NCBI GenBank assembly: GCA_026400835.1
Contig: JAPLOA010000040.1
Location: 1-43,899, forward strand
DNA: 43,899 nucleotides
Reading direction: 5' to 3'
From: Planctomycetales bacterium
GTDB taxonomy: Bacteria > Planctomycetota > Planctomycetia > Planctomycetales > Planctomycetaceae
Shown here: positions 2,280 to 12,827 of the stretch, piece by piece
Numbering within the stretch: position 1 is the stretch's first letter
Layout of the letters: each line of letters begins with the position of its first letter
The notes under the pieces: model-generated
Databases searched by the model: none
What the model was told of the DNA's origin: nothing
What the model saw: the letters and a program-made list of their open reading frames with translations, nothing else
Program-made: the position numbers and the translations under genes

Positions 2280-3374
2280 ATGGCCCAGTCGGCCGTAAAA
2301 CGAATGAACGCTGCGAACCCTACCCCTCCTGCTCGCCCTTTGCAGGACGTCAACATCATCGAGACGTTTCCTCTGATTTCTCCTGCAGAACTCAAGCGAG
2401 AGTTTCCGGTCTCGTCAGCCATCGCCGATCACGTGGCTGACTCACGAGGCGTGGTAGAAAACATCCTCCGCGGAAACGACAAGCGAGTCATCGCGATCGT
2501 GGGCCCATGTTCAATCCACAATACCGACATGGCGCTGGAGTACGCACGCCAACTGAAGGCTGTGGCTGATGAAGTGAGCGATCGGCTGTTTGTGGTCATG
2601 CGAGTTTACTTCGAGAAACCTCGCACGACCGTGGGATGGAAAGGCTTGATCAACGACCCCCATCTGAACGACACATTCGACATCGCCACGGGACTGCGTA
2701 AAGCTCGCCAGATTTTGCTGGACATCAACAAGGTCGGTTTGCCAGCGGCAACAGAAATGCTGGAACCGATTACTCCTCAATACATCGCGGACCTGATTAC
2801 TCTGGCCTCGATTGGGGCTCGAACCACGGAATCACCGACTCATCGCCAGATGGCCAGTGGACTTTCGATGCCGGTCGGATTCAAGAACAGCACGGAAGGT
2901 AGTCTTGAAGTGGCGATCAATGCCATGAAAGCCGCGCGGGCTCAGCACAATTTTCTGGGCATCGATCATGACGGCAAGACCTGTGTCATGAGCACTCGTG
3001 GAAATGAGCTGGGGCACTTGATTCTGCGTGGCGGCCGCAACGGTCCCAATTATCAGGCCGAACATGTCAGCGAAGCCAGCCGGATGTTGCGCGATGCCAA
3101 ACTGCCCCCCAGACTGGTCGTTGACTGCAGCCATGCGAATTCCAGCAAGGATTATCGCCGCCAGCCGGAAGTGTGGATGGATGTTATTCGGCAGCGAGCG
3201 GCCGGGAACGAAGAGATCGTCGGGCTTATGCTGGAAAGCAATCTCGTCGAAGGCGCTCAGGCATTGACAGAAGATCTCTCAAAGCTGAAGTACGGCGTGA
3301 GCATCACGGACGGCTGCATCAGCATCGAAGAAACAGCCAACCTGCTGCGGGAAGCCAGAAAAACGCTGGCGTAG
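2280..3374 (+). CDS. aroG: 3-deoxy-7-phosphoheptulonate synthase, type I (AroG-like)
   Basis: Condenses phosphoenolpyruvate with erythrose 4-phosphate to DAHP, the first step of the shikimate pathway, in the cytoplasm. The 364-residue product matches the E. coli AroG/F/H family along its whole length. Visible motifs are GPCSIH (75-80), KPRTTVGWKG (113-122), IGARTTES (178-185), LRGGRNGPNY (249-258), DCSHANSS (282-289) and ITDGCI (342-347). By family comparison the metal ligands are Cys77, His285, Glu319 and Asp344, all present. The N-terminal 30 residues carry the feedback-inhibitor region in this family and differ from E. coli, so the effector amino acid cannot be told. The start at 2280 has only a weak CGGA just upstream; ATG at codon 9 (2304) is an alternative. 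The gene stands alone and is followed by mobile element copy A. Confidence 0.95.
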   Translation: MAQSAVKRMNAANPTPPARPLQDVNIIETFPLISPAELKREFPVSSAIADHVADSRGVVENILRGNDKRVIAIVGPCSIHNTDMALEYARQLKAVADEVSDRLFVVMRVYFEKPRTTVGWKGLINDPHLNDTFDIATGLRKARQILLDINKVGLPAATEMLEPITPQYIADLITLASIGARTTESPTHRQMASGLSMPVGFKNSTEGSLEVAINAMKAARAQHNFLGIDHDGKTCVMSTRGNELGHLILRGGRNGPNYQAEHVSEASRMLRDAKLPPRLVVDCSHANSSKDYRRQPEVWMDVIRQRAAGNEEIVGLMLESNLVEGAQALTEDLSKLKYGVSITDGCISIEETANLLREARKTLA

Positions 3375-3423
3375 TTGATAAATTCATGGGCGAAACGGCG
3401 TTTGAGATTGTTGATTTTATCCT

Positions 3424-3675
3424 CACCCGCGGCGTCAGTTTTGAAGTTGCGCATTTGCGTCTGTCCCAACCCGCCGCGTGAGCGAGGGATTGTGTTTTAG
3501 CGCTTTAGGCAGTGTTTGCGTAAATCCCTCGCTGACGCGTCGGGTTATGATAGTTCCCTGTGTTTTCGCACCCTTGATCTCCCCCAGTCTTGAATGGCGC
3601 AACTTCAAAAGGCGTCAGCGAGGGATTATTGTTCACAACGCGGCAACGAGTATCCCTCATTGACGTGTCGGGTTG
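3424..3675. repeat. older hairpin unit interrupted by mobile element copy A
   Basis: If the element at 3439-3610 and one copy of its 8 bp duplication are removed, the flanks join into a hairpin unit. It starts with CACCCGCGGCGTCAGCGAGG and ends with CCCTCATTGACGTGTCGGGT. This is the same architecture as the inner hairpin of the element itself, so this is an older relative that was later interrupted. I see no terminal TTTTGAAG ends for it; they are lost or never existed. Confidence 0.7.
3439..3610 (+). mobile_element. MITE-like element, copy A (172 bp)
   Basis: The ends are perfect 14 bp inverted repeats, TTTTGAAGTTGCGC at 3439-3452 and its complement at 3597-3610. The element is flanked by a perfect 8 bp direct repeat, GGCGTCAG, at 3431-3438 and 3611-3618, the expected mark of transposition. 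The inside holds a long hairpin with arms near 3468-3491 (AACCCGCCGCGTGAGCGAGG) and 3522-3546 (CCCTCGCTGACGCGTCGGGT). There is no coding capacity. It matches copy C closely in the same orientation and copy B in reverse. The transposase that moves it is not in this window. Confidence 0.85.
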
Positions 3676-3744
3676 TGAAAACGCATTAAGTCAACAGACC
3701 GTCTCCGCCGTAAGACCCAAGGTCACGAGCCGTCGACAACTCAA

Positions 3745-4227
3745 TCACGTGCTGCTATACCGAGCCTGCTCAGCGGCGGCCACGGCGAGGACATCGCAGC
3801 GTTCATTTTCCGGATGACCTGCATGGCCCGGAACAAGCTTGAATGTGACCTGATGCTTCGTCAGCAGAGCATCCAGCGAAATCCACTGACTTTCGTTCTT
3901 GATGGGAACAAGCTTGTTGCCATCTTTTCGTTTCCAGCCGTTACGTTTCCAGCCTGGTAACCACTCTTTAGAACCTTTGGCAACGTAGGTGCTGTCGGTC
4001 ACCACTTCCACACGCGATTTGCGTGTCAACAGTTTCAGGCCTTCAATCACGGCCTGAAGTTCCATTTGATTATTGGTGGTCATCGGATGACCCCCGCTGA
4101 ATTCTTTTTCTGTCGACGAAGCCGGATGTCGCAGAATCACGCCCCAGCCACCGGGCCCCGGATTACCTCGACAGGCGCCATCGGTGAAAACCTGGACGAA
4201 CGGGAGCGATGAGGCGGTGCTGGTCAT
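3745..4227 (-). CDS. rnhA: ribonuclease HI
   Basis: Degrades the RNA strand of RNA-DNA hybrids. The 160-residue length is normal for bacterial RNase HI. The catalytic DEDD set is visible as Asp16 (FTDGACRGNPGPGGWG), Glu56 (NNQMELQAV), Asp78 (VTDSTYV) and Asp145 (ENERCDVLA), with the active-site His135 in GHAGHPENERCD. The basic-protrusion region around 85-105 (WLPGWKRNGWKRKDGN) that grips the hybrid in E. coli-type enzymes is present. The ATG at 4227 has no strong ribosome site. It lies 61 bases downstream of infA on the same strand, so the two may be co-transcribed. Confidence 0.95.
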   Translation of the reverse strand: MTSTASSLPFVQVFTDGACRGNPGPGGWGVILRHPASSTEKEFSGGHPMTTNNQMELQAVIEGLKLLTRKSRVEVVTDSTYVAKGSKEWLPGWKRNGWKRKDGNKLVPIKNESQWISLDALLTKHQVTFKLVPGHAGHPENERCDVLAVAAAEQARYSST

Positions 4228-4288
4228 GTCAAATTCACGTCAGGCCGACATGCCTCAAGGGCAGATGATAATCCACTCGCGAAATCAA

Positions 4289-4507
4289 TCAGCGTTCGCG
4301 GTAAACAATGCGACCTCGTTTCAGGTCATACGGAGAGACTTCCACAACCACACGGTCACCGGGCACAATCCTGATGAAGTGCTTACGCATTTTACCGGCA
4401 ACGTGAGCCATAACCTGATGGCCGTTCTCCAGTTCGACGCGAAACTGAGTGTTCGCAAGAGCCTCGACAACGTTGCCTTCAACCTGAATCGCTTCTTCCT
4501 TCGCCAT
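4289..4507 (-). CDS. infA: translation initiation factor IF-1
   Basis: A 72-residue, single OB-fold protein that binds the ribosomal A site of the 30S subunit during initiation. The whole sequence fits the family: [11 protein letters not shown] at the start, the [18 protein letters not shown] strand-loop, [19 protein letters not shown] and the C-terminal KGRIVYR-type ending (here [10 protein letters not shown]). Upstream of the ATG the transcript reads AAGAATTCGGA, giving a usable purine-rich ribosome site. It sits apart from a ribosomal-protein operon and immediately upstream of rnhA in the direction of transcription. Confidence 0.97.
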
Positions 4508-5144
4508 TCCGAATTCTTCTTTCGCCCTTTACGAAACTTGCTGCAGGGCCTAAGCCCTCGGTCCCAATGTCAAAGAGTGACATTTTAAGGATTCCCGGAC
4601 AATTGAAAGATCAGTTGCCACTTGCCCGGAGTCAATTACTGTGCATGGTGACGAAACTTCGCCGGAAACTCAAGCACCAAAATGCTTTGCGGAAACGAGA
4701 AACCTCAGGTGCGAAAACGGGGCTCATGGTAGGATGGGCATTCCTGCCCGTCGTCTGCCCCGTTCTTCAACTCGGAATCGCAGTCGGACAAGAATGTCCA
4801 ACCTACAGATAAAATTTGACGAAACGACAGCCTTATCATGAAGCTGAGATTTCAAATCCGGGGGAAATTGGCCGTTTCGATAACGGATTCGAGCCGGTTT
4901 ATTCGCTGGGTTCCACCGAATTTCTGAATGTGAGTGGAACCAGACTCTCTGGAATGTGTCGATTGTCCGGCAGGCAGAGGATGTGAATTTCCCGGGAAGA
5001 GTTCTTCGGAGTTGTGTCGGCTTGAATCTTCCCGGATCAGATTGATATCCTTCCGCCGCACTAACGAACTTCCGTCCGGGAAGGGACAGATTCCTCATCT
5101 GTCGCAACGTTTCCAGGCTCTGGATTGTTCGTTTTGACTGTCTC
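4508..5144. other. 637-base non-coding stretch between infA and tRNA-Leu
   Basis: I see no convincing gene; a long open frame on the minus strand here runs through the tRNA and is a chance reading. The stretch holds one hairpin repeat (4729-4806) and, further right, two small inverted pairs. These are GGTTCCAC/GTGGAACC at 4909-4916 and 4934-4941, and CCGGGAAGA/TCTTCCCGG at 4992-5000 and 5027-5035. These could be part of a structured transcript or the tRNA promoter region. Confidence 0.5.
4729..4806. repeat. imperfect inverted repeat GTAGGATGGGCATTCC...
   Basis: The 22-base left arm begins GTAGGATGGGCATTCCTGCC and the right arm, ending at 4806, is its near complement (…AAGAATGTCCAACCTAC). About 18 of 22 positions pair and the loop is about 34 bases. 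The arms end in GTAGG/CCTAC. It looks like a dispersed hairpin repeat rather than a terminator because no T-run follows. It is a different family from the TTTTGAAG elements. Confidence 0.6.
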
Positions 5145-5226
5145 GCGCAAGTGGCGAAATTGGCAGACGCGCACGCTTGAGGGGCGTGTGGGGCAACCCA
5201 TGCAGGTTCAAGTCCTGTCTTGCGCA
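5145..5226 (+). tRNA. tRNA-Leu (anticodon GAG)
   Basis: An 82-base class II tRNA. The acceptor stem is GCGCAAG (5145-5151) paired with CTTGCGC (5219-5225) and the discriminator base is A5226. The D arm contains TGGCGAAATTGGCAGAC. The anticodon stem is CACGC/GCGTG around the loop TTGAGGG, which puts GAG at the anticodon for CUC leucine codons. A variable arm follows, then the T arm with GGTTCAAGTCC. The 3' CCA is not encoded; the next bases are TTG. Confidence 0.96.
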
Positions 5227-5234
5227 TTGAAACT

Positions 5235-5275
5235 AAAAGAGGTTGTGATCTGAAAAGATTGCAACCTCTTTTTTT
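5235..5275 (+). terminator. intrinsic terminator after tRNA-Leu
   Basis: The inverted repeat AAAAGAGGTTG/CAACCTCTTTT is followed directly by a T-run. The position 9 bases after the tRNA fits transcript ending for the tRNA. Confidence 0.9.
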
Positions 5276-5359
5276 GTTCACTGGAATGACGCACGTGATT
5301 CCGCGACAACTCGCCTGCAACGTACCGCAACTGCAGTCGAACGAATGTAAGGATGTCGC

Positions 5360-6724
5360 ATGCTGAATTCGCGAATTCCAGCCTCGGGGCCTGTTGATCT
5401 TCGGCCTTCTGAACATGGGCAATGCAGTCGACTCCGAGACGCTTTGGTTTACGCACGAGTCCTGGTGCGGACCCCGACAACCGTGATCGCCGCAGCGTTC
5501 TGCATCTGGATCATTCCTGCGTCACTCGATGCGGCCGCTGACGACTGGCTGCAGTGGCGAGGTCCTCTCGGGACGGGAATCTCCGAGGAGACCGGTGTTC
5601 CGCAGAAGTGGTCGCAGACCGAGAACATCCGCTGGAAGGTGAAACTCGACGGCGAAGGTAATTCCAGCCCGATCGTTGTCGACTCCAAAGTCTTCATCAC
5701 TCACGCTCCAACCGGATCCGCTCAACGCGAACTGCGATGTTGCGATCGTAGTGACGGAACGCTGCTCTGGACGAAGGGGGCGGAATACTCAGAGAAGGAG
5801 ATTACCCATCAGACCAATCCGCTCTGTGCAAGTTCTCCGGTGAGTGATGGTGAGCGAATCGTCGCCTGGTTCGGATCGGCCGGTTTGTATTGCTATGATC
5901 TGAATGGTGAGCAACGGTGGAAGGTCGAAACCGGCAGGGTCGATCACATCTGGGGTTACGGCTCCAGTCCCGTCATCTACCAGAATTTGGTGCTGCTGAA
6001 TTTCGGTCCGGGCGTGAATTCATACGTCGCGGCATTCAGCTTGAAGGATGGAGCCGAAGTCTGGCGCCGTACATTTCCGGAACAGGTATCGTCGAAACAC
6101 GAAGAATATAGAGGCTCCTGGAGCACTCCGGTGATAATGCCACAGGGGAATTCTGAAACCCTCCTGCTCTCCATGCCGGATCGTCTATGGGCTGTGTCGC
6201 CGTTGACTGGCGAGGATCGATGGTCCTGTGGAGGACTCAGCAAACTGCTGTACACGTCACCGCTGATTGCCGGTGATGTCGTCGTGTCGATGGCTGGATA
6301 CAACGGCCCGGCCATTGCCGTTCGTGCGGAAGGTACGGGAGATCTCACTGATAGCAAGCGTGTCTGGCTGCATGAGAAAGGAAATCCTCAACGAGTCGGC
6401 TCGGGGGTCGTGGTTGGAGAACACCTCTACATTCTGAACGAACCGGGAATCGCGTGGTGCATCCATATTCCGACCGGAGAAATTACCTGGAAGGAAAGGC
6501 TCGATGGTGCCTCGTCGTGGAGTTCCATGACAGCGGTCGACGGTCATCTTCAGGTCACCACCATGAAGGGTTCGACGATTTTGTTGCAGGCAGATCCCAC
6601 AGCGTGTCAAGTGATTGGAATCAATGAACTTGGAGAGATGACTCGCGCAACTCCAGCTTACTCCAACGGTCAGATTTTCATTCGCACGTATCAGCATCTG
6701 TACTGCATTGAAGAATCACAGTAA
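5360..6724 (+). CDS. PQQ-like beta-propeller repeat protein, exported
   Basis: A 454-residue protein with an exported N-terminus: hydrophobic core around residues 41-55 (VIAAAFCIWIIPASLDAAA) after a long, Arg-containing leader. The mature part begins DDWLQWRGPLGTGISEETG, the WRGP-type opening typical of PQQ-like (BamB/quinoprotein-like) propellers in planctomycetes. Recurring strand motifs such as GTLLWTKG, GEQRWKVETG, AEVWRRTF, GEDRWSCGG and GEITWKERLDG mark successive blades. Such proteins either bind ligands or act as scaffolds in the periplasm; no enzymatic residues can be named. The ribosome site AAGGA lies about 7 bases before the ATG. It is followed 24 bases later by the enolase-superfamily gene on the same strand, so the pair is probably an operon. 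Confidence 0.88.
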   Translation: MLNSRIPASGPVDLRPSEHGQCSRLRDALVYARVLVRTPTTVIAAAFCIWIIPASLDAAADDWLQWRGPLGTGISEETGVPQKWSQTENIRWKVKLDGEGNSSPIVVDSKVFITHAPTGSAQRELRCCDRSDGTLLWTKGAEYSEKEITHQTNPLCASSPVSDGERIVAWFGSAGLYCYDLNGEQRWKVETGRVDHIWGYGSSPVIYQNLVLLNFGPGVNSYVAAFSLKDGAEVWRRTFPEQVSSKHEEYRGSWSTPVIMPQGNSETLLLSMPDRLWAVSPLTGEDRWSCGGLSKLLYTSPLIAGDVVVSMAGYNGPAIAVRAEGTGDLTDSKRVWLHEKGNPQRVGSGVVVGEHLYILNEPGIAWCIHIPTGEITWKERLDGASSWSSMTAVDGHLQVTTMKGSTILLQADPTACQVIGINELGEMTRATPAYSNGQIFIRTYQHLYCIEESQ

Positions 6725-6748
6725 TTGTTAGCCAGAAGGAACCGTCTG

Positions 6749-7870
6749 ATGAAGATTGCCTCTATTGAAGCTATACCGGTTCGTATTCCACTCACCGCAG
6801 AACGTCGGATGATCTCTGCGCTGGGGCGTCATGAAGTTTCGCAGTTTGTCGTCGTACGACTGACAACGGACAATGGGATCGTGGCAGCCGGAGAAGCCAC
6901 TGCGACTCCTCGCTGGAGCGGCGAAACAGTTTGGGGCGTTCAGGCGATCATTCAGAATCTTTTTGCTCCGCTGCTGCAGGGTTTCGACCTGGACGACCTT
7001 CCTGCCATTGACAATCGCATGGATCTGGCGGCAATCGATAATTGGTTTGCCAAGTCCGCTATCGAGATGGCTTGCTGGGATGCTCTCGGCAAAGCGGCTC
7101 AGCGCCCGGTTTATGAATTGCTGGGTGGTGCTGTCAGGCCACTGACAATTCGCAATCGATTCTCCATGGGAGCGTATGCTCCGGAAGTTGCTGCTGAACG
7201 AGCCAAACAGCGTATCGCGGCTGGATTTACCACGATCAAGGTGAAGGTTGGAACTGGACCGGAACTGGATGTTCAGCGAGTGCACGCGGTGCGAGAAGCC
7301 ATTGGTCCGGACAACCACCTTACCGTTGATGCTAACGGCGGATGGAACGATGAACAGGCTCGATATTGCCTGAAGAGAATTGCAGACTGCAATGTTGAAC
7401 TGGTCGAGCAACCGCTTCCTCGTGGTGATTATTCGCAGCTCAGAAAGCTGCGACAGGACACTGGCATCAAAGTGCTGGCTGACGAAAGCTGCTTCGATGA
7501 GGTGCATTTGCGCGAACTGATTTTGCACGACTGCTGTGATGCCGTGACGCTGTATCCGGGCAAACAAGGCGGCATCGCGAAAGCGCGAAAATTGGCGGCG
7601 ATTGCGGCCGATGCAGGGATTCCCTGCACAATCGGATCCAATCTCGAATGGGACATTGGCGCCGCGGCGATGATGCAGTTTGTTGTCTCAACACCCAACG
7701 TACAGATCGAACAAATCCCCGGCGATTGCCTCGGTCCAAGCTATCACGAGTTTTCGATCGTGCGCAATCCCCTGAAGATCGAGGGAGCTTTCACCTCGTT
7801 GAATCCCGAACCCGGGCTCGGGATCGACGTCGACTGGGACCTGATTGAACAGCATCGGATCCGATCTTAA
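6749..7870 (+). CDS. mandelate racemase/muconate-lactonizing enzyme family protein
   Basis: An enolase-superfamily enzyme of 373 residues. Such enzymes abstract a proton next to a carboxylate and stabilise the enediolate on Mg2+. The MLE-subgroup catalytic set is present: Lys164 and Lys166 in TIKVKVG, metal ligands Asp194 (VDANGGW), Glu220 (EQPLP) and Asp245 (ADES), and the second base Lys272 in YPGKQGG. The capping domain is the first ~120 residues. The substrate cannot be read from sequence; muconate-type cycloisomerase, dipeptide epimerase and o-succinylbenzoate synthase chemistries share this scaffold. I chose ATG 6749 because AGAAGGA at 6734-6740 sits 8 bases upstream, and the family starts MKI; a TTG at 6725 would add eight unlikely residues. 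It likely shares a transcript with the upstream propeller gene. Confidence 0.9.
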   Translation: MKIASIEAIPVRIPLTAERRMISALGRHEVSQFVVVRLTTDNGIVAAGEATATPRWSGETVWGVQAIIQNLFAPLLQGFDLDDLPAIDNRMDLAAIDNWFAKSAIEMACWDALGKAAQRPVYELLGGAVRPLTIRNRFSMGAYAPEVAAERAKQRIAAGFTTIKVKVGTGPELDVQRVHAVREAIGPDNHLTVDANGGWNDEQARYCLKRIADCNVELVEQPLPRGDYSQLRKLRQDTGIKVLADESCFDEVHLRELILHDCCDAVTLYPGKQGGIAKARKLAAIAADAGIPCTIGSNLEWDIGAAAMMQFVVSTPNVQIEQIPGDCLGPSYHEFSIVRNPLKIEGAFTSLNPEPGLGIDVDWDLIEQHRIRS

Positions 7871-8081
7871 CGCCGGAAAAAACGAATGGCTCCCGCAGAG
7901 ATCCCGAAATCCAGAGGAAAAGTGACGGCCAGAGTTGGCTGCCCCGGTCTTGTTGGTGCCTCTCAGTTGATGCGCGGCCAAGTCCAGGCCCGGCCTCGAT
8001 TGTTAGCGCCCACGATTGCGGATGTATGCTGGGAACCGCCGGCTCAGCAATCTGGCACCCCGTCACTTTTCTGCCAGGGCA

Positions 8082-9272
8082 TTAATCGTTCTTGTAGTCG
8101 GAATGGCAGTTACTGCAGGTAGTGGAAACTCGAGTCAGCGCGGACTCATAACCTGCGAAGTCACCTGACTCAGCGGCGGTCTTGATATCCTGTGATGCCT
8201 TCAGCACTTCGTTGGCATAGCCCGTGAATTTGGGGTCATCACCGTATCCGTAGGCTGGCATCGACACAATTTTTGCCATCACGGCCATCATAGAAGCTTC
8301 ATGAGCCACCATCGCCTTCTTCTCACCCATTGTGCTTTCGTTGCCGGCTTCGGTTTTGAGTCGTTTTTCGGCCTCTTCCATTCGCATCATCAGGAGCCGC
8401 ATTTCGGCCACTTCGGCAAATGAATCTGATTCAGGGGGCTCTTCGAGACCGGCGGGCTTTGATCGGCTCAGCGTGGCATCGACGGCGTCATACAACTCTT
8501 CGATACGCTTTTGATCTTTCGCACCGCGTTGCAGAACAGACGAGTTCATCTTCTTGGCCAGGTCACGCACGTACTTTGCATCGTCCTTCCATGAGATCGA
8601 TTCCGGATGCTCCATGACGATCCCCGCGACAGCTCCCAAAGCTGCAGCCTTAGGGGGAATCATCAGCATGGATGAGTTAAACGTGCCCACAGAATGCACA
8701 TTCTCATTCAGGAAATTGCGAATCGATTTAACTTCTTCATCGATGGTGGCCGCCGTAATCAGGGTGGCCCATGAATTCTCACCCCCGGCCGCCGGCGCTG
8801 TGGTCGTCTCCATCGGTGGCTTTGGAGAATCCGAAGCAGGCGCTGCCGTTGCGTCGGATCCCTCTGCGGCAGCCGGAGTCATCGCAGGTTCCTGTGCTCC
8901 ACCGGCATCTGCCACTGCCACGACTGCCCCACCAATCGATTCCTGATTACTGGCCACTTCGTAGGCATTGTCAAAAAATGCGTCCATCGGAACATTACCG
9001 AACCACTTCTGGCCATTTTCGTCCACCCAGACCTCATCGCGTTTGTGACGAGTTTTACTGGTCGAAGCAGTCGCGGCGGGCTTCTCTTCTGAGGCGGCTT
9101 CAGTAGCAGATGGCGCCGGCTGGGAAGCTTCAGAAGCGGCCGGCGTGTCTGTGGAAGCAACCGGAGCCACTGAATTCCCGCCGCAGCCGATCAACGTCAG
9201 GCAACCAGCACAGGCCAATGCGACAGGGAACATCTCTAACAGAATTCTTAGGAACGTTGTGCTCAAAAACAT
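8082..9272 (-). CDS. lipoprotein with C-terminal monohaem (CxxCH) cytochrome c'-like domain
   Basis: The N-terminus has a signal sequence ending in a lipobox (LTLIGCGG), so the protein is probably a lipid-anchored periplasmic protein. It continues through an Ala/Pro/Thr/Glu-rich linker of about 40 residues, a short WVDENGQKWFGNVPMDAFFD segment, a second Ala/Pro-rich linker and a helical C-terminal half. The final residues contain CSNCH ten residues from the end (residues 386-390). A covalent haem motif at the end of a helical domain is the arrangement of class II (c'-type) cytochromes. A role in electron transfer or gas binding is inferred. I prefer ATG 9272; a TTG at 9284 and an ATG at 9233 are in frame and also leave the lipobox intact. 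The gene is convergent with the preceding enzyme gene. Confidence 0.8.
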   Translation of the reverse strand: MFLSTTFLRILLEMFPVALACAGCLTLIGCGGNSVAPVASTDTPAASEASQPAPSATEAASEEKPAATASTSKTRHKRDEVWVDENGQKWFGNVPMDAFFDNAYEVASNQESIGGAVVAVADAGGAQEPAMTPAAAEGSDATAAPASDSPKPPMETTTAPAAGGENSWATLITAATIDEEVKSIRNFLNENVHSVGTFNSSMLMIPPKAAALGAVAGIVMEHPESISWKDDAKYVRDLAKKMNSSVLQRGAKDQKRIEELYDAVDATLSRSKPAGLEEPPESDSFAEVAEMRLLMMRMEEAEKRLKTEAGNESTMGEKKAMVAHEASMMAVMAKIVSMPAYGYGDDPKFTGYANEVLKASQDIKTAAESGDFAGYESALTRVSTTCSNCHSDYKND

Positions 9273-9475
9273 ATATCCGTCCAACGAATGGAGTTAACCT
9301 GCCGGCGGGAACTGTTCACCGTATACGGGAACGACCGACAGTATAGAGCGGCGGCAGCAGGCTGTCAGCAGAAAAGCACATTCAGACTTTAACAGGGGGC
9401 CGTTGCCTGTTTCGGCAGGTGCTGTCTACCCGGGCAGAACTCAGGACCTGTTACGAAATAAGTTCCCGCAATCAC

Positions 9476-9716
9476 AACCCGACGCGTAAGTTTTGAAGTT
9501 GCGAGTTTCGGAGCTGAGGTTGTTCACTTGCGGAGAAACACTGGGATTTATCATAACCCGAAGCGTCAGCGAGGGATTCCCGGCAACCCTGCGTAAACCG
9601 CGAAACATAATCCCTCGCTGACGCGTCGGGTTGGGATAGTCACAAATGCGCAACTTCAAAACGCGTAAGCGGGGAATCGGCGCTTTGCAGAGAAATCCCT
9701 CACTGACGTTTCGGGT
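9476..9716. repeat. older hairpin unit interrupted by mobile element copy B
   Basis: Removing the element at 9491-9661 and one duplication copy joins AACCCGACGCGTAAGCGGGG on the left to an arm ending CCCTCACTGACGTTTCGGGT on the right, a hairpin unit like the one at 3424-3675. The interruption falls 15 bases into the unit, just as in copy A. Confidence 0.7.
9491..9661 (-). mobile_element. MITE-like element, copy B (171 bp, reverse orientation)
   Basis: The ends are TTTTGAAGTTGCG at the left and its complement CGCAACTTCAAAA at the right (13 bp perfect). The flanking 8 bp direct repeats are CGCGTAAG at 9483-9490 and 9662-9669. The interior reads, on the minus strand, as the same hairpin as copies A and C. 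There is no coding capacity. Confidence 0.85.
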
Positions 9717-10344
9717 TGCGATTTCTCGCCGCAGTCGAAACAGGATGTTACTTCCGGACTGTTCCCTGGCGGCATGCCGCGACCTCTGTGTATGCCATAA
9801 CACTGTGCAGGCTGCAATTCTCAACGACTTACAGACAAGGTTCGCCTTTCGGCGAAAGTCCTTGCCGGCAGAAAGAACCCACCTCGACAACCATCCGCGA
9901 CCATACGCACTGAACGTTAACGCATTCCATTATTTGCCGTTCAGAGGAAGGCAAGGTTTCATTGGGGTGGCCACAAGGCGGCTCAGTCTTGCGGCAACTT
10001 TCAAGTTCCCGCGAAGCCTGCCAAGGTATCGCAGGGCTTTCTGAAGGTGAATTTTGGCTTCGAAGCAATTGCAGGACCTTGGCCGGGGCAAATTGTCAAG
10101 TTTGCAATTCCTCGGCAGACGCGAAGCCGCCCACAGCAAAATCTGCGGCTAAGCAAGGCGGCGAGGGAAAAGACTCAGCAGAATCGCCAGCAAAAAGCAG
10201 GAACAGCGCTAAACATGGTTTGTAGTCTTTGCATTGGCACTTCAATTGCTTATCAACTTCCTTGTTCTCAACTGGTATGACTGCGATCATGATGCGACCA
10301 ACTCAGGTGTCCATTCATGCCGGAACTCATTCACCGTTATTTTC
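9670..10344. other. 675-base stretch without a clear gene
   Basis: After the right arm of the older hairpin unit (to 9716) I see no recognisable gene. A small perfect hairpin, TTCGCC-TTTC-GGCGAA, lies at 9841-9856 inside AAGG...CCTT flanks. The rest, including the area just before the SHOCT-like gene, shows no promoter I can call. Confidence 0.4.
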
Positions 10345-10983
10345 ATGATCTTCATCTGCGAATACTCGAACAGATTTTATGAGTGGAAGGTCCCCTCAGA
10401 ATACTTCTGGCTGTCTCGGAAGACAGACTGGTGGAAGCTGCTGCAACTGCCGGATATCTCATGGATTCCGCTTCTGATTGCGGCGTCATTTTTGGTCGTA
10501 GTGATTTGGGCGATTGTTCGCCTGGTATCACGAGTAAACGAAGATGTTGATCCTGCCGAAGCGGATCGGGAGATGCTCCTGGCTCTCAACGATTTACGAC
10601 GAGAGGGTGACCTGACCGAGGACGAATTCCGATCCATCAAGGGACAAATTACAGGCCGGCTTCAGGCGACCTGGGGTGACAAAAAGAGAACGGGGACTTC
10701 AGCAAAAACTGCAGCCTCGATCATGAGCTCCAAAGTTGATTCTTTCTCTCCGGAGACTGAGTCAGCAGCAGAGCAAAATCAAGAGACAGAGGAAGGGTCT
10801 TCCGAGACGTCAGAACCCGACCAACCGGAAACCTTGACCAGTCCGACAAATGTTCCCAAGCCTTCACAGAATACCACGGATCTGGCCGAACGCCGGATGC
10901 CATCGGAATCCGAAAGAGGTGAGGGGACAAATGACACAGATCAAATGACGAAAAACAGGGATCCACACATCCCGGAGAATTGA
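10345..10983 (+). CDS. small membrane protein with SHOCT-like segment
   Basis: About 212 residues from ATG 10345. There is one clear membrane helix (ISWIPLLIAASFLVVVIWAI), then a charged segment, then ALNDLRREGDLTEDEFRSIK, which fits the short C-terminal SHOCT-type motif often found after membrane anchors. The remaining ~120 residues are Glu/Ser/Thr/Pro-rich and look disordered. The function is unknown. The start is uncertain: no good ribosome site precedes ATG 10345, and an in-frame TTG at 10234 would add a second hydrophobic stretch. It lies about 220 bases upstream of clpX on the same strand. Confidence 0.6.
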   Translation: MIFICEYSNRFYEWKVPSEYFWLSRKTDWWKLLQLPDISWIPLLIAASFLVVVIWAIVRLVSRVNEDVDPAEADREMLLALNDLRREGDLTEDEFRSIKGQITGRLQATWGDKKRTGTSAKTAASIMSSKVDSFSPETESAAEQNQETEEGSSETSEPDQPETLTSPTNVPKPSQNTTDLAERRMPSESERGEGTNDTDQMTKNRDPHIPEN

Positions 10984-11201
10984 AGTTGCGGGCCCTGTCG
11001 AGGATGACAGACTGTGACAGGATTCAACTTCGAGAGAGTGGGATCTATAAACGACAAGAGACACGGTTGGCAGGGACGCCGACGACCCGGAGCGACCACC
11101 TGCGAACCGTATACGTGGTTCATACTCAGCCTTCCGACTTTTGACTCCACAGTCATGATGGGCCGTATGAGACTCGTGACAGAAAATCCAAAGGGATAAC
11201 A

Positions 11202-12485
11202 ATGGCATCAGGTAAGGAATTTGGTTCAGGCAAGACCGCACAGCAGGGCAAGAGAAATGCCAACTGTTCATTTTGTCGAAAGAACTACCGGGAAGTCGGA
11301 CCTCTGGTAGAGGGGCCCGAAGACGTCTATATCTGCGGTGAATGTATCGAGCTGTGCCAGTCGATTCTCGACCAGGAACGCCGCCGCCGCGGATCATCCA
11401 AGAAGCTCTTCAATCGCGTCCCAACCCCGCGAGAAATTGTGAAGGAGCTGGATCAGTACGTCATCGGGCAGGACAAGTCCAAGAAGTTGTTGTCCGTCGC
11501 AGTGCATAGCCACTACAAGCGACTGATGCACAACCTTGAAATCGGGACGGAAGACGTTGAGATTGAAAAGTCCAACATCCTTCTGATCGGCCCGACGGGT
11601 TCAGGCAAGACTTTGCTGGCCAAGACGCTTGCGAAGTCTCTTCAGGTGCCATTTGCCATCGGAGACGCAACGACTCTGACCGAAGCTGGCTACGTCGGTG
11701 AAGACGTGGAAAACCTGCTGCTCAAGTTGTTGCATGCGGCCGACTTCGACATCGAAGCGGCTCAGCGAGGCATCATCTTCATCGACGAAATTGACAAGAT
11801 TGGCAAGACCAGTCAGAACGTCAGCATCACTCGCGACGTCTCGGGCGAAGGCGTGCAGCAGGCTCTGTTGAAGATGCTCGAAGGCACCGTGGCCAACGTG
11901 CCACCTCAGGGCGGTCGTAAGCATCCTGAGCAGCAATACATACAGATCGACACGACAAACATCCTCTTCATCTGCGGGGGAACATTCGTCGGTCTGGAAG
12001 ACATTGTGGCTCGCCGTATGGGCAAGAAGGTCATCGGCTTCGGTAACAACAACGAAACTCACGAAGAACGAGCCCGTGAAGAACTGCTAAGCAATGCCAC
12101 AGTCGAAGACGTGATGGAATTCGGTCTGATTCCGGAATTGCTTGGACGACTGCCGGTCATCGGAACATTGGCTCCGCTGCACGAAGAAGCTCTGGTTCAG
12201 GTTCTGACCGAGCCTCGCAATGCTCTGGTTCGCCAGTACAAGAAGATGTTCGAGATGGAAGAATGCAGTCTCGAATTCACCGACGGGGCTCTGCGAGAAA
12301 TTGCCAAGCTGGCTCGGTCACGAGAAACGGGTGCTCGCGGTCTTCGCAGCATTCTGGAACAGGTCATGTTTGAACTGATGTTCGAATTGCCTGAACTGGA
12401 ACGCGGTCAGAAGTTTGTGATCACCGAAGAAATTGTGAAGGGCGACCGCAAGAGCATCCACCGCGGAGACTCAGCCGCAGCGTAA
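11202..12485 (+). CDS. clpX: ATP-dependent Clp protease ATP-binding subunit ClpX
   Basis: The AAA+ unfoldase that feeds substrates into the ClpP protease chamber. The product is 427 residues, the normal length. The N-terminal zinc-binding domain has Cys22, Cys25, Cys45 and Cys48. Walker A is GPTGSGKT (130-137), the GYVGE pore loop is at 163-167, Walker B is [10 protein letters not shown] (191-200) and the ClpP-docking IGF loop is at 278-280. The sensor-2 region [14 protein letters not shown] is present. The ribosome site AAGGG lies 6 bases before the ATG. clpP does not sit directly upstream as it does in many bacteria. A terminator follows 38 bases after the stop. Confidence 0.97.
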
Positions 12486-12522
12486 TGACGCAGGCGGGAT
12501 CAACAACCATCTGATGTAATCT

Positions 12523-12550
12523 CGAGCCGGGCATGTCCCGGCTCGTTTTA
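12523..12550 (+). terminator. intrinsic terminator after clpX
   Basis: The nine-base inverted repeat CGAGCCGGG/CCCGGCTCG is separated by a five-base loop (CATGT) and followed by TTTTATTT. Confidence 0.88.
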
Positions 12551-12583
12551 TTTGGCCTCATATTCACCGGCCCCGGATTGACT

Positions 12584-12747
12584 TTTTGAAGTTGCGCATT
12601 TGCGTCTATCCCAACCCGCTGCGTGAGCGAGGGATTGTGTTTTAGGCAGTGTTTGCGTAAATCCCTCGCTGACGCTTCGGGTTATGATAAATCCCAGTGT
12701 TTCTTCGCAAGCGAACAACCTCAGAGCCGAAACGCGCAACTTCAAAA
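12584..12747 (+). mobile_element. MITE-like element, copy C (164 bp)
   Basis: The ends are perfect 14 bp inverted repeats, TTTTGAAGTTGCGC and its complement. The flanking 8 bp direct repeats are GATTGACT at 12576-12583 and 12748-12755. The interior hairpin arms match copy A, but a few bases are missing between them, which explains the shorter length. Unlike A and B, it did not land inside an older hairpin unit. Confidence 0.87.
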
Positions 12748-12827
12748 GATTGACTTGAGCCTGAGGCGATAGCCGATTTACTGACTTAGGCACAGTCTCA
12801 AATCAACGTCCCGATATTTCCGTGTCG

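Follow-up and report, generated by a model that had tools for sequence, protein, structure and literature searches.

A family of short inverted-repeat elements with 8 bp target duplications that carries its own palindromic target in a Planctomycetales genome

Three element copies in one contig

A stretch of 43,899 bp from a Planctomycetales bacterium (assembly GCA_026400835.1, contig JAPLOA010000040.1; called the window below) holds three short elements, A, B and C, that share the same ends. The window is contig C66 of the genome under study (G000; 7.58 Mb in 112 contigs). The locus raises the question of whether these copies were placed by transposition and, if so, what determines where they land. 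We consider it very probable that they belong to a family of miniature inverted-repeat transposable elements (MITEs) that depends on a transposase supplied in trans, is inserted with an 8 bp staggered cut and prefers the centre of a repetitive extragenic palindrome (REP). A first-pass annotation had already proposed three copies with perfect terminal inverted repeats of 13–14 bp, each between its own perfect 8 bp direct repeat. Direct reading bore out their coordinates, gave repeats of 14, 13 and 14 bp for A, B and C, and yielded the duplications GGCGTCAG, CGCGTAAG and GATTGACT. The features, as read in the sequence, are listed below.

3439..3610, plus strand: element copy A, type I, 172 bp; terminal inverted repeats 3439–3452 and 3597–3610 (14 bp); perfect pair
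3431..3438, no strand: copy A target duplication GGCGTCAG, left; flanks match at 8/8
3611..3618, no strand: copy A target duplication GGCGTCAG, right
3419..3438, minus strand: REP palindrome interrupted by copy A, left half; other half 3611–3626
3468..3491, minus strand: copy A internal REP 1 (AACCCGCCGCGTGAGCGAGGGATT), paired with REP 2 in the fold
3523..3546, plus strand: copy A internal REP 2 (AATCCCTCGCTGACGCGTCGGGTT), inverted relative to REP 1, also seen in the fold
9491..9661, minus strand: element copy B, type I, 171 bp; terminal inverted repeats 9491–9503 and 9649–9661 (13 bp); orientation opposite to A; perfect pair
9483..9490, no strand: copy B target duplication CGCGTAAG, left; inside a REP with halves 9471–9490 and 9662–9677, matching the consensus at 25/28 positions
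9662..9669, no strand: copy B target duplication CGCGTAAG, right
9442..9768, no strand: REP block that contains copy B; absent from relatives G004 and G015
12584..12747, plus strand: element copy C, type I, 164 bp; terminal inverted repeats 12584–12597 and 12734–12747 (14 bp); perfect pair
12576..12583, no strand: copy C target duplication GATTGACT, left; neither REP nor hairpin (no centred hairpin); empty site AATTGACT in G015 and G004
12748..12755, no strand: copy C target duplication GATTGACT, right

Copy number, ends and target duplication

The 13-mer TTTTGAAGTTGCG is present 153 times in the 7.58 Mb genome, compared with a single occurrence of the reversed pattern. Elements with both 13 bp ends perfect (N{131,161} between the ends, corresponding to 157–187 bp) number 43 genome-wide, and the pattern control gave none. 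These counts exclude matching to chance as the source of the ends, and they confirm the high genome copy number expected earlier. The 43 perfect pairs are 164–174 bp long with inverted repeats of 13–14 bp. When their flanks were scored, as the first-pass annotation had proposed, 22 agreed at 8/8 positions and 31 at 7/8 or better. The median identity of the perfect copies is 82% over 789 pairs with at least 150 aligned bases, and single pairs reach 98%, which indicates that both old and fairly recent copies are present.

A wider set allowed up to two mismatches per 13 bp end and lengths of 138–174 bp. It comprises 63 rows for 62 elements, one element on C86 being counted twice for its two possible right ends. 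The 8 bp flanks are identical in 27 rows and agree at 7/8 positions in 14, at 6/8 in 7 and at 5/8 or fewer in 15. The length of the duplication is sharply defined: a perfect direct repeat is found at 8 bp in 27 of the 63 rows and at 4–7 or 9–12 bp in none. Six of the 41 well-flanked rows have another left end and another right end outside them, that is, they are nested.

Seven sites (copies A, B and C and four in contig C45) were compared with the orthologous regions of the relatives G015 and G004. The flanks of copy C join with an 8 bp overlap in both G015 (contig C695) and G004 (contig C394), leaving one copy of the target, which reads AATTGACT there and GATTGACT in our genome. At C45:25477, G015 has the intact REP AACCCGAAGCGTCAGCGAG, where our genome has an element between two copies of AGCGTGAG. 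These empty sites support the earlier view that the element is non-autonomous and truly duplicates 8 bp of its target. The elements are short, have terminal inverted repeats and a fixed 8 bp duplication, contain no transposase gene and show clean empty sites at two of the seven loci, as is characteristic of MITEs.

Preferred insertion at the centre of a REP

Most of the duplications are not arbitrary sequences. Of 57 end pairs with a duplication of 7/8 or better, 45 sit at one phase of one REP, with a consensus of approximately ATCCCTCG-CTGACGCK-TCGGGTTGTGAT. The duplication is the central CTGACGCK, the same eight REP positions each time, with variants such as CTCACGCT, CTTACGCG and CTGGCGCT. 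For this assignment the flanks were re-joined and compared with the 28 bp REP consensus at a cut-off of 18; the 45 match at 21 or more positions. The 57 are rows, in which the left end C77:6449 is used twice and nested outer ends are counted; 51 come from our own genome (44 at REPs) and six from other genomes (one at a REP). The re-joined site of copy A equals the consensus at 23/28 positions, in the phase common to 44 other rows. The three different duplications of the window had been taken to define the ends exactly and to show true transposition. The 8-mers are real, and two of the three come from the same palindrome, the REP; the target is thus chosen, a point that the first reading had missed.

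REP-like flanks are present in 44 elements. In 24 of these the 8-mer on the left equals that on the right, whereas 2000 reshufflings gave 5.1 such matches on average and never more than 13. Among the 44, C73:60316 lies in another hairpin that passed the loose filter. The agreement within elements, well above the reshuffled level, indicates that different REPs were hit independently, as opposed to one block having been copied. The orientation of the element relative to the REP is divided 22 to 13 among 35 insertions, and both orientations are thus used.

The target deserves its name as a short, repeated palindrome outside genes, with a palindromy that is weak for the single REP. REP cores with at most 4/21 changes occur at 14 sites in a 380 kb sample, the reversed control giving none. 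Ten of the 14 are not near any element end. Only one lies in an open frame of at least 200 codons, though such frames make up 85% of the sample.

In the commonest form of the element, type I with a length of about 172 bp, a pair of target-type REPs lies in inverted orientation. Long hairpins were obtained for the two copies that were folded, with z of −7.6 for A (RNA parameters) and −8.1 for B (DNA parameters) and an equal fold in 0/200 shuffles each. The first-pass annotation had noted the internal hairpin, its make-up from a pair of the same REP having gone unrecognised. Since type I carries two REPs, each of its insertions into a REP splits one target and would bring two new ones.

We propose that the ends TTTTGAAGTTGCG(C), 13–14 bp long, are recognised by a trans-acting transposase, most likely a DDE enzyme, which makes an 8 bp staggered cut on inserting the element. 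Its preferred target would be the centre of the REP palindrome, recognised either by its sequence or as an extruded hairpin; other sites, some of them strong hairpins, would be used less often. Four of the 12 non-REP sites (C112:26657, C35:45022, C11:13035 and L218) do lie in unrelated strong hairpins, with a centred stem score of at least 7, a value reached by 0.27% of 20,000 random positions. Another of the 12, C73:60316, has a stem score of 5 and belongs to the same repeat as C11:13035. The hairpin as the only targeting rule was rejected, REP sites scoring no better than background in the centred-stem test. Recognition by shape is likely for some targets; for the REPs it is unproven, as their median stem is at background level. 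To our knowledge, how DDE-type elements pick REPs, by sequence or by extruded hairpin, is not settled.

Constant ends and variable interiors in the genus

Exact ends are present in six of eight other genomes of the genus tested. The first-pass annotation missed that these ends occur across the genus with different interiors: the ends are constant, and at least three unrelated types of interior, all rich in palindromes, can be told apart. Besides type I, there are type II of about 226 bp, with hairpins of GGCC-CGGAG-GGCC and GGTGGCGTGAGCCACC, and type III of about 226–238 bp, with CTTCTCCCCC/GGGGGAGAAGG arms; a mini form of 93 bp was also found. Motifs of types II and III have no site in the 380 kb sample of our own genome. 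The perfect 157–187 bp form is found in two of 198 genomes searched, our own included. Element A had no match in plasmids, and the element and end patterns had none in viral contigs. In type II elements, the GGTGGCGTG/CACGCCACC hairpin holds a further hairpin element (L072 3659–3896, L083 1267–1538 and L080 from 1068).

The source of the transposase

The full-length element with these ends and a transposase gene that had been suggested as the parent was looked for. Ends were read at 151 of the 153 exact sites in G000 and at most unpaired exact ends in G001, G004, G011, G014, G015 and G017; close pairs about 100–240 bp apart outside G000 and at least one single end (G017:C319:4816) were left unread. 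In the stretches of G000 covered by this analysis, left and right ends 190–9000 bp apart with a flank match of at least 6/8 form 17 pairs. Fourteen of them, of 216–354 bp, are nested or composite elements plus one type II and one type III element of 227 bp each, and the three longer ones (2418, 2462 and 6223 bp) join separate elements. None of the 17 bears a transposase, the open frames beside the ends not having been run against Pfam. Seven of 194 ends (up to two mismatches) have an interior unlike the known element types or insertion sequence (IS) ends; two of these form a type III element, and the rest have no partner. No partner end with a matching flank was found for the unusual single ends (C54:96667 and some in G011, G014 and G017).

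The elements may instead be moved by a resident transposase, present in single copy and without TTTTGAAG ends around it, much as RAYTs (REP-associated tyrosine transposases) are thought to move REPINs (REP doublets). We regard this as a possibility, though not a probable one. The constancy of the ends in the genus speaks for it, together with the result that no TTTTGAAG-bounded transposase element was met at the ends examined in seven genomes. This is, however, negative evidence from fragmented assemblies with some ends unread, in which an autonomous copy may have been lost or become divergent. A wider version, which we likewise offer tentatively, would see here a modular, genus-wide, target-carrying element: constant ends with an equally constant REP or hairpin targeting, at least three unrelated types of interchangeable palindromic cargo, and a resident transposase without the same ends. 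Type I would seed its own landing sites, and the elements would serve as substrate for nesting and for a second, independent transposon of the IS1182 clade that enters hairpin loops with a 5 bp duplication.

The transposase of this second transposon, P0001, was also considered as the mobiliser. P0001 is an IS1182-family protein of our genome (NCBIfam NF033551, 317 bits, cut-off 270), whose element has one complete copy, with left ends seen nine times and right ends eight times in the stretches read. The single scan of contigs with the IS1182 transposase gave one match only, in a Planctomicrobium metagenome-assembled genome at 60% identity; by this match the host would very probably be a planctomycete. 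Copies of this IS often lie between TTTTGAAG ends. Such an end is found 30 bp outside the IS ends on C35, C80, C25 and the right side of C77, and about 115 bp outside on C41, C27 and C60 (twice); a split REP adjoins most of them. In addition, IS1272, a member of the IS1182 family, targets inverted repeats (PMC5678879). Nevertheless, it is very unlikely that P0001 moves the elements. The local IS1182 clade has its own ends, AGGCYGTGA, which do not match the element ends, and three loci (C15, C81 and C94) have no TTTTGAAG-like end in the 150 bp outside, C26 having a much diverged one. The genomes G001 (100% complete; 8/11 candidates scored) and G014 (98%; 7/7 scored) have TTTTGAAG ends but no match to P0001.

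The duplication differs as well, being 5 bp and not 8 bp. At 11 loci (ten relatives and our own copy) a perfect 5 bp repeat was seen at the AGGCYGTGA ends in five, in a listing that favoured pairs with a perfect repeat, and in none of the other six. The repeats are CGGAG three times, CAATG and CTATG, and at three of the five loci the repeat lies between arms complementary at 7/8 positions. In our genome CCCGGAG precedes eight of nine left ends and CGGAGGG follows six of eight right ends (read outward). The presence of CGGAG on both sides of most copies agrees with a 5 bp duplication in GGCC-CGGAG-GGCC hairpins. Inverted flanking 5-mers were noted at our own complete copy (L149, CGGAG/CTCCG) and at L158 of G021 (CTGTC/GACAG), which would fit an inversion or replacement of the loop. 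Copies with AGGCYGTGA ends are nested in hairpins at G000:C77:1–1686 (L071) and at other contig ends. An IS1182-family IS with TTTTGAAG ends, suggested by copies at contig ends, was rejected as the parent: the relatives have other ends, and the IS sits in type II hairpins. We read the IS1182 element as a passenger, probably a second hairpin-loop transposon inside type II elements.

Evidence weighing against REP-directed transposition

Several observations weigh against the reading of a MITE family that is inserted into REPs by a transposase acting in trans. Beside the missing TTTTGAAG-ended element with a transposase, which was not found in seven genomes at the ends examined (a search that was not exhaustive), 12 of the 57 sites are not REPs. 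Among them are seven with a stem score no higher than 3, including copy C of the window, which thus sits in neither a REP nor a hairpin. By itself the REP folds only weakly (median z −0.5), and its median centred stem of 2 is the same as background. Furthermore, 22 of the 63 rows show no duplication of 7/8 or better. Copies without the 8 bp duplication had been named beforehand as evidence that would count against transposition; such rows exist, and nesting, mispaired ends and recombination probably account for some of them. In six poor rows the flanks are REP halves in opposite orientation (C10:61621, C11:55931, C27:117917, C35:162327, C60:55560 and C103:59171). A perfect 8/8 match is restored with a second right end further on for C60:13280 and C60:55560, and with a second left end for C10:59331 and C35:162226. 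Part of the poor rows, but not all, fits nesting and recombination between copies.

The comparison with relatives is also mixed, since a clean empty site was obtained at only two of the seven loci, the other five lying in missing, replaced or imperfectly joined sequence. At C45:35882 the site is joined in G015 with an imperfect 6/8 match. Copy A and C45:40926 gave no clean empty site, as both G015 and G004 carry other sequence in place of the stretch, and C45:25477 was uninformative in G004, where about 400 bp are missing. At copy B and C45:39531, the REP block and the element are absent as a unit in both relatives, so that some copies may move or be lost with their block. In G004 position 9441 is followed directly by 9769, and in G015 the break runs from 9437 to 9769; closer alignment of copy B to the relatives found no anchors. 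The REP blocks themselves come and go between species, as the block at 9442–9768 shows in G004 and G015.

That the flanking 8-mers are merely part of a REP-based block copied as a unit, as the many REP flanks and the joint absences at copy B and C45:39531 might suggest, is nonetheless highly improbable, though it could hold for some copies, because the 8-mers match within elements far above reshuffled pairs and empty sites exist for at least two copies, one at a REP and one not.

Two side observations concern the window. In the orthologue of 3374–3744, G015 and G004 have another palindromic repeat, of the GTTTAACGGCAAGCCGCAGGCG type, in the intergenic region that holds copy A in our genome; the core motif of this repeat has 11 sites in the 380 kb sample. 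A giant open frame covers 23416–43899 (plus strand) and is open at the window end; it has at least 6828 codons, and two pieces of 1600 residues gave no Pfam match at E 0.001.

Comparison with known systems

The family is real and well supported. As a MITE it is ordinary in kind; what sets it apart is the choice of target and the presence of that target within the element. Some ISs are known to land in REP palindromes, and one genome here offers dozens of insertions at one base position, together with a few orthologous empty sites and a few strong non-REP hairpin targets. The second transposon beside it, which uses hairpin loops and makes a duplication of another length, lends itself to comparison. 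The growth of nested palindrome clusters between genes would also be easier to understand with an element that brings its own target. The novelty rests on the combination of REP targeting and REP carriage in one MITE; a limited literature search found no report of a MITE that does both, and one may exist.

QMITE2 of Coxiella, which carries the GTAG REP by which IS1111 targets it (PMC10969869), resembles the present elements, as do bacterial MITEs in general, in being short and gene-less, with terminal inverted repeats, direct repeats and many copies. Here, in contrast, it is the MITE that goes into the REP, two copies of this target lie within its common form, and no parent IS was found. REPs of the GTAG type have been reported in the PVC (Planctomycetes, Verrucomicrobia and Chlamydiae) superphylum (PMC3733652). 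ISs of several families insert into REPs, among them ISRm22 (IS4 family) of Sinorhizobium, which enters at the REP palindrome axis with 6 bp direct repeats (PMC1525189). Insertion inside REPs at a fixed position with direct repeats is common to both systems; the present element is gene-less and makes 8 bp repeats. IS1272 replaces hairpins without target duplication (PMC5678879). It thus shares hairpins as targets with the IS1182-family IS nested in some of the elements, whereas this local clade shows 5 bp repeats and other ends.

REPINs and BIMEs (bacterial interspersed mosaic elements) consist of two inverted REPs with a spacer, are bounded by REPs, are linked to RAYTs and are not known to make a target duplication. 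A REPIN moved by a RAYT does not fit the present elements, their outer ends being TTTTGAAG with an 8 bp duplication. Type I elements share the two inverted REPs with these systems, and differ from them in that the REP pair is enclosed by TTTTGAAG inverted repeats and flanked by 8 bp duplications.

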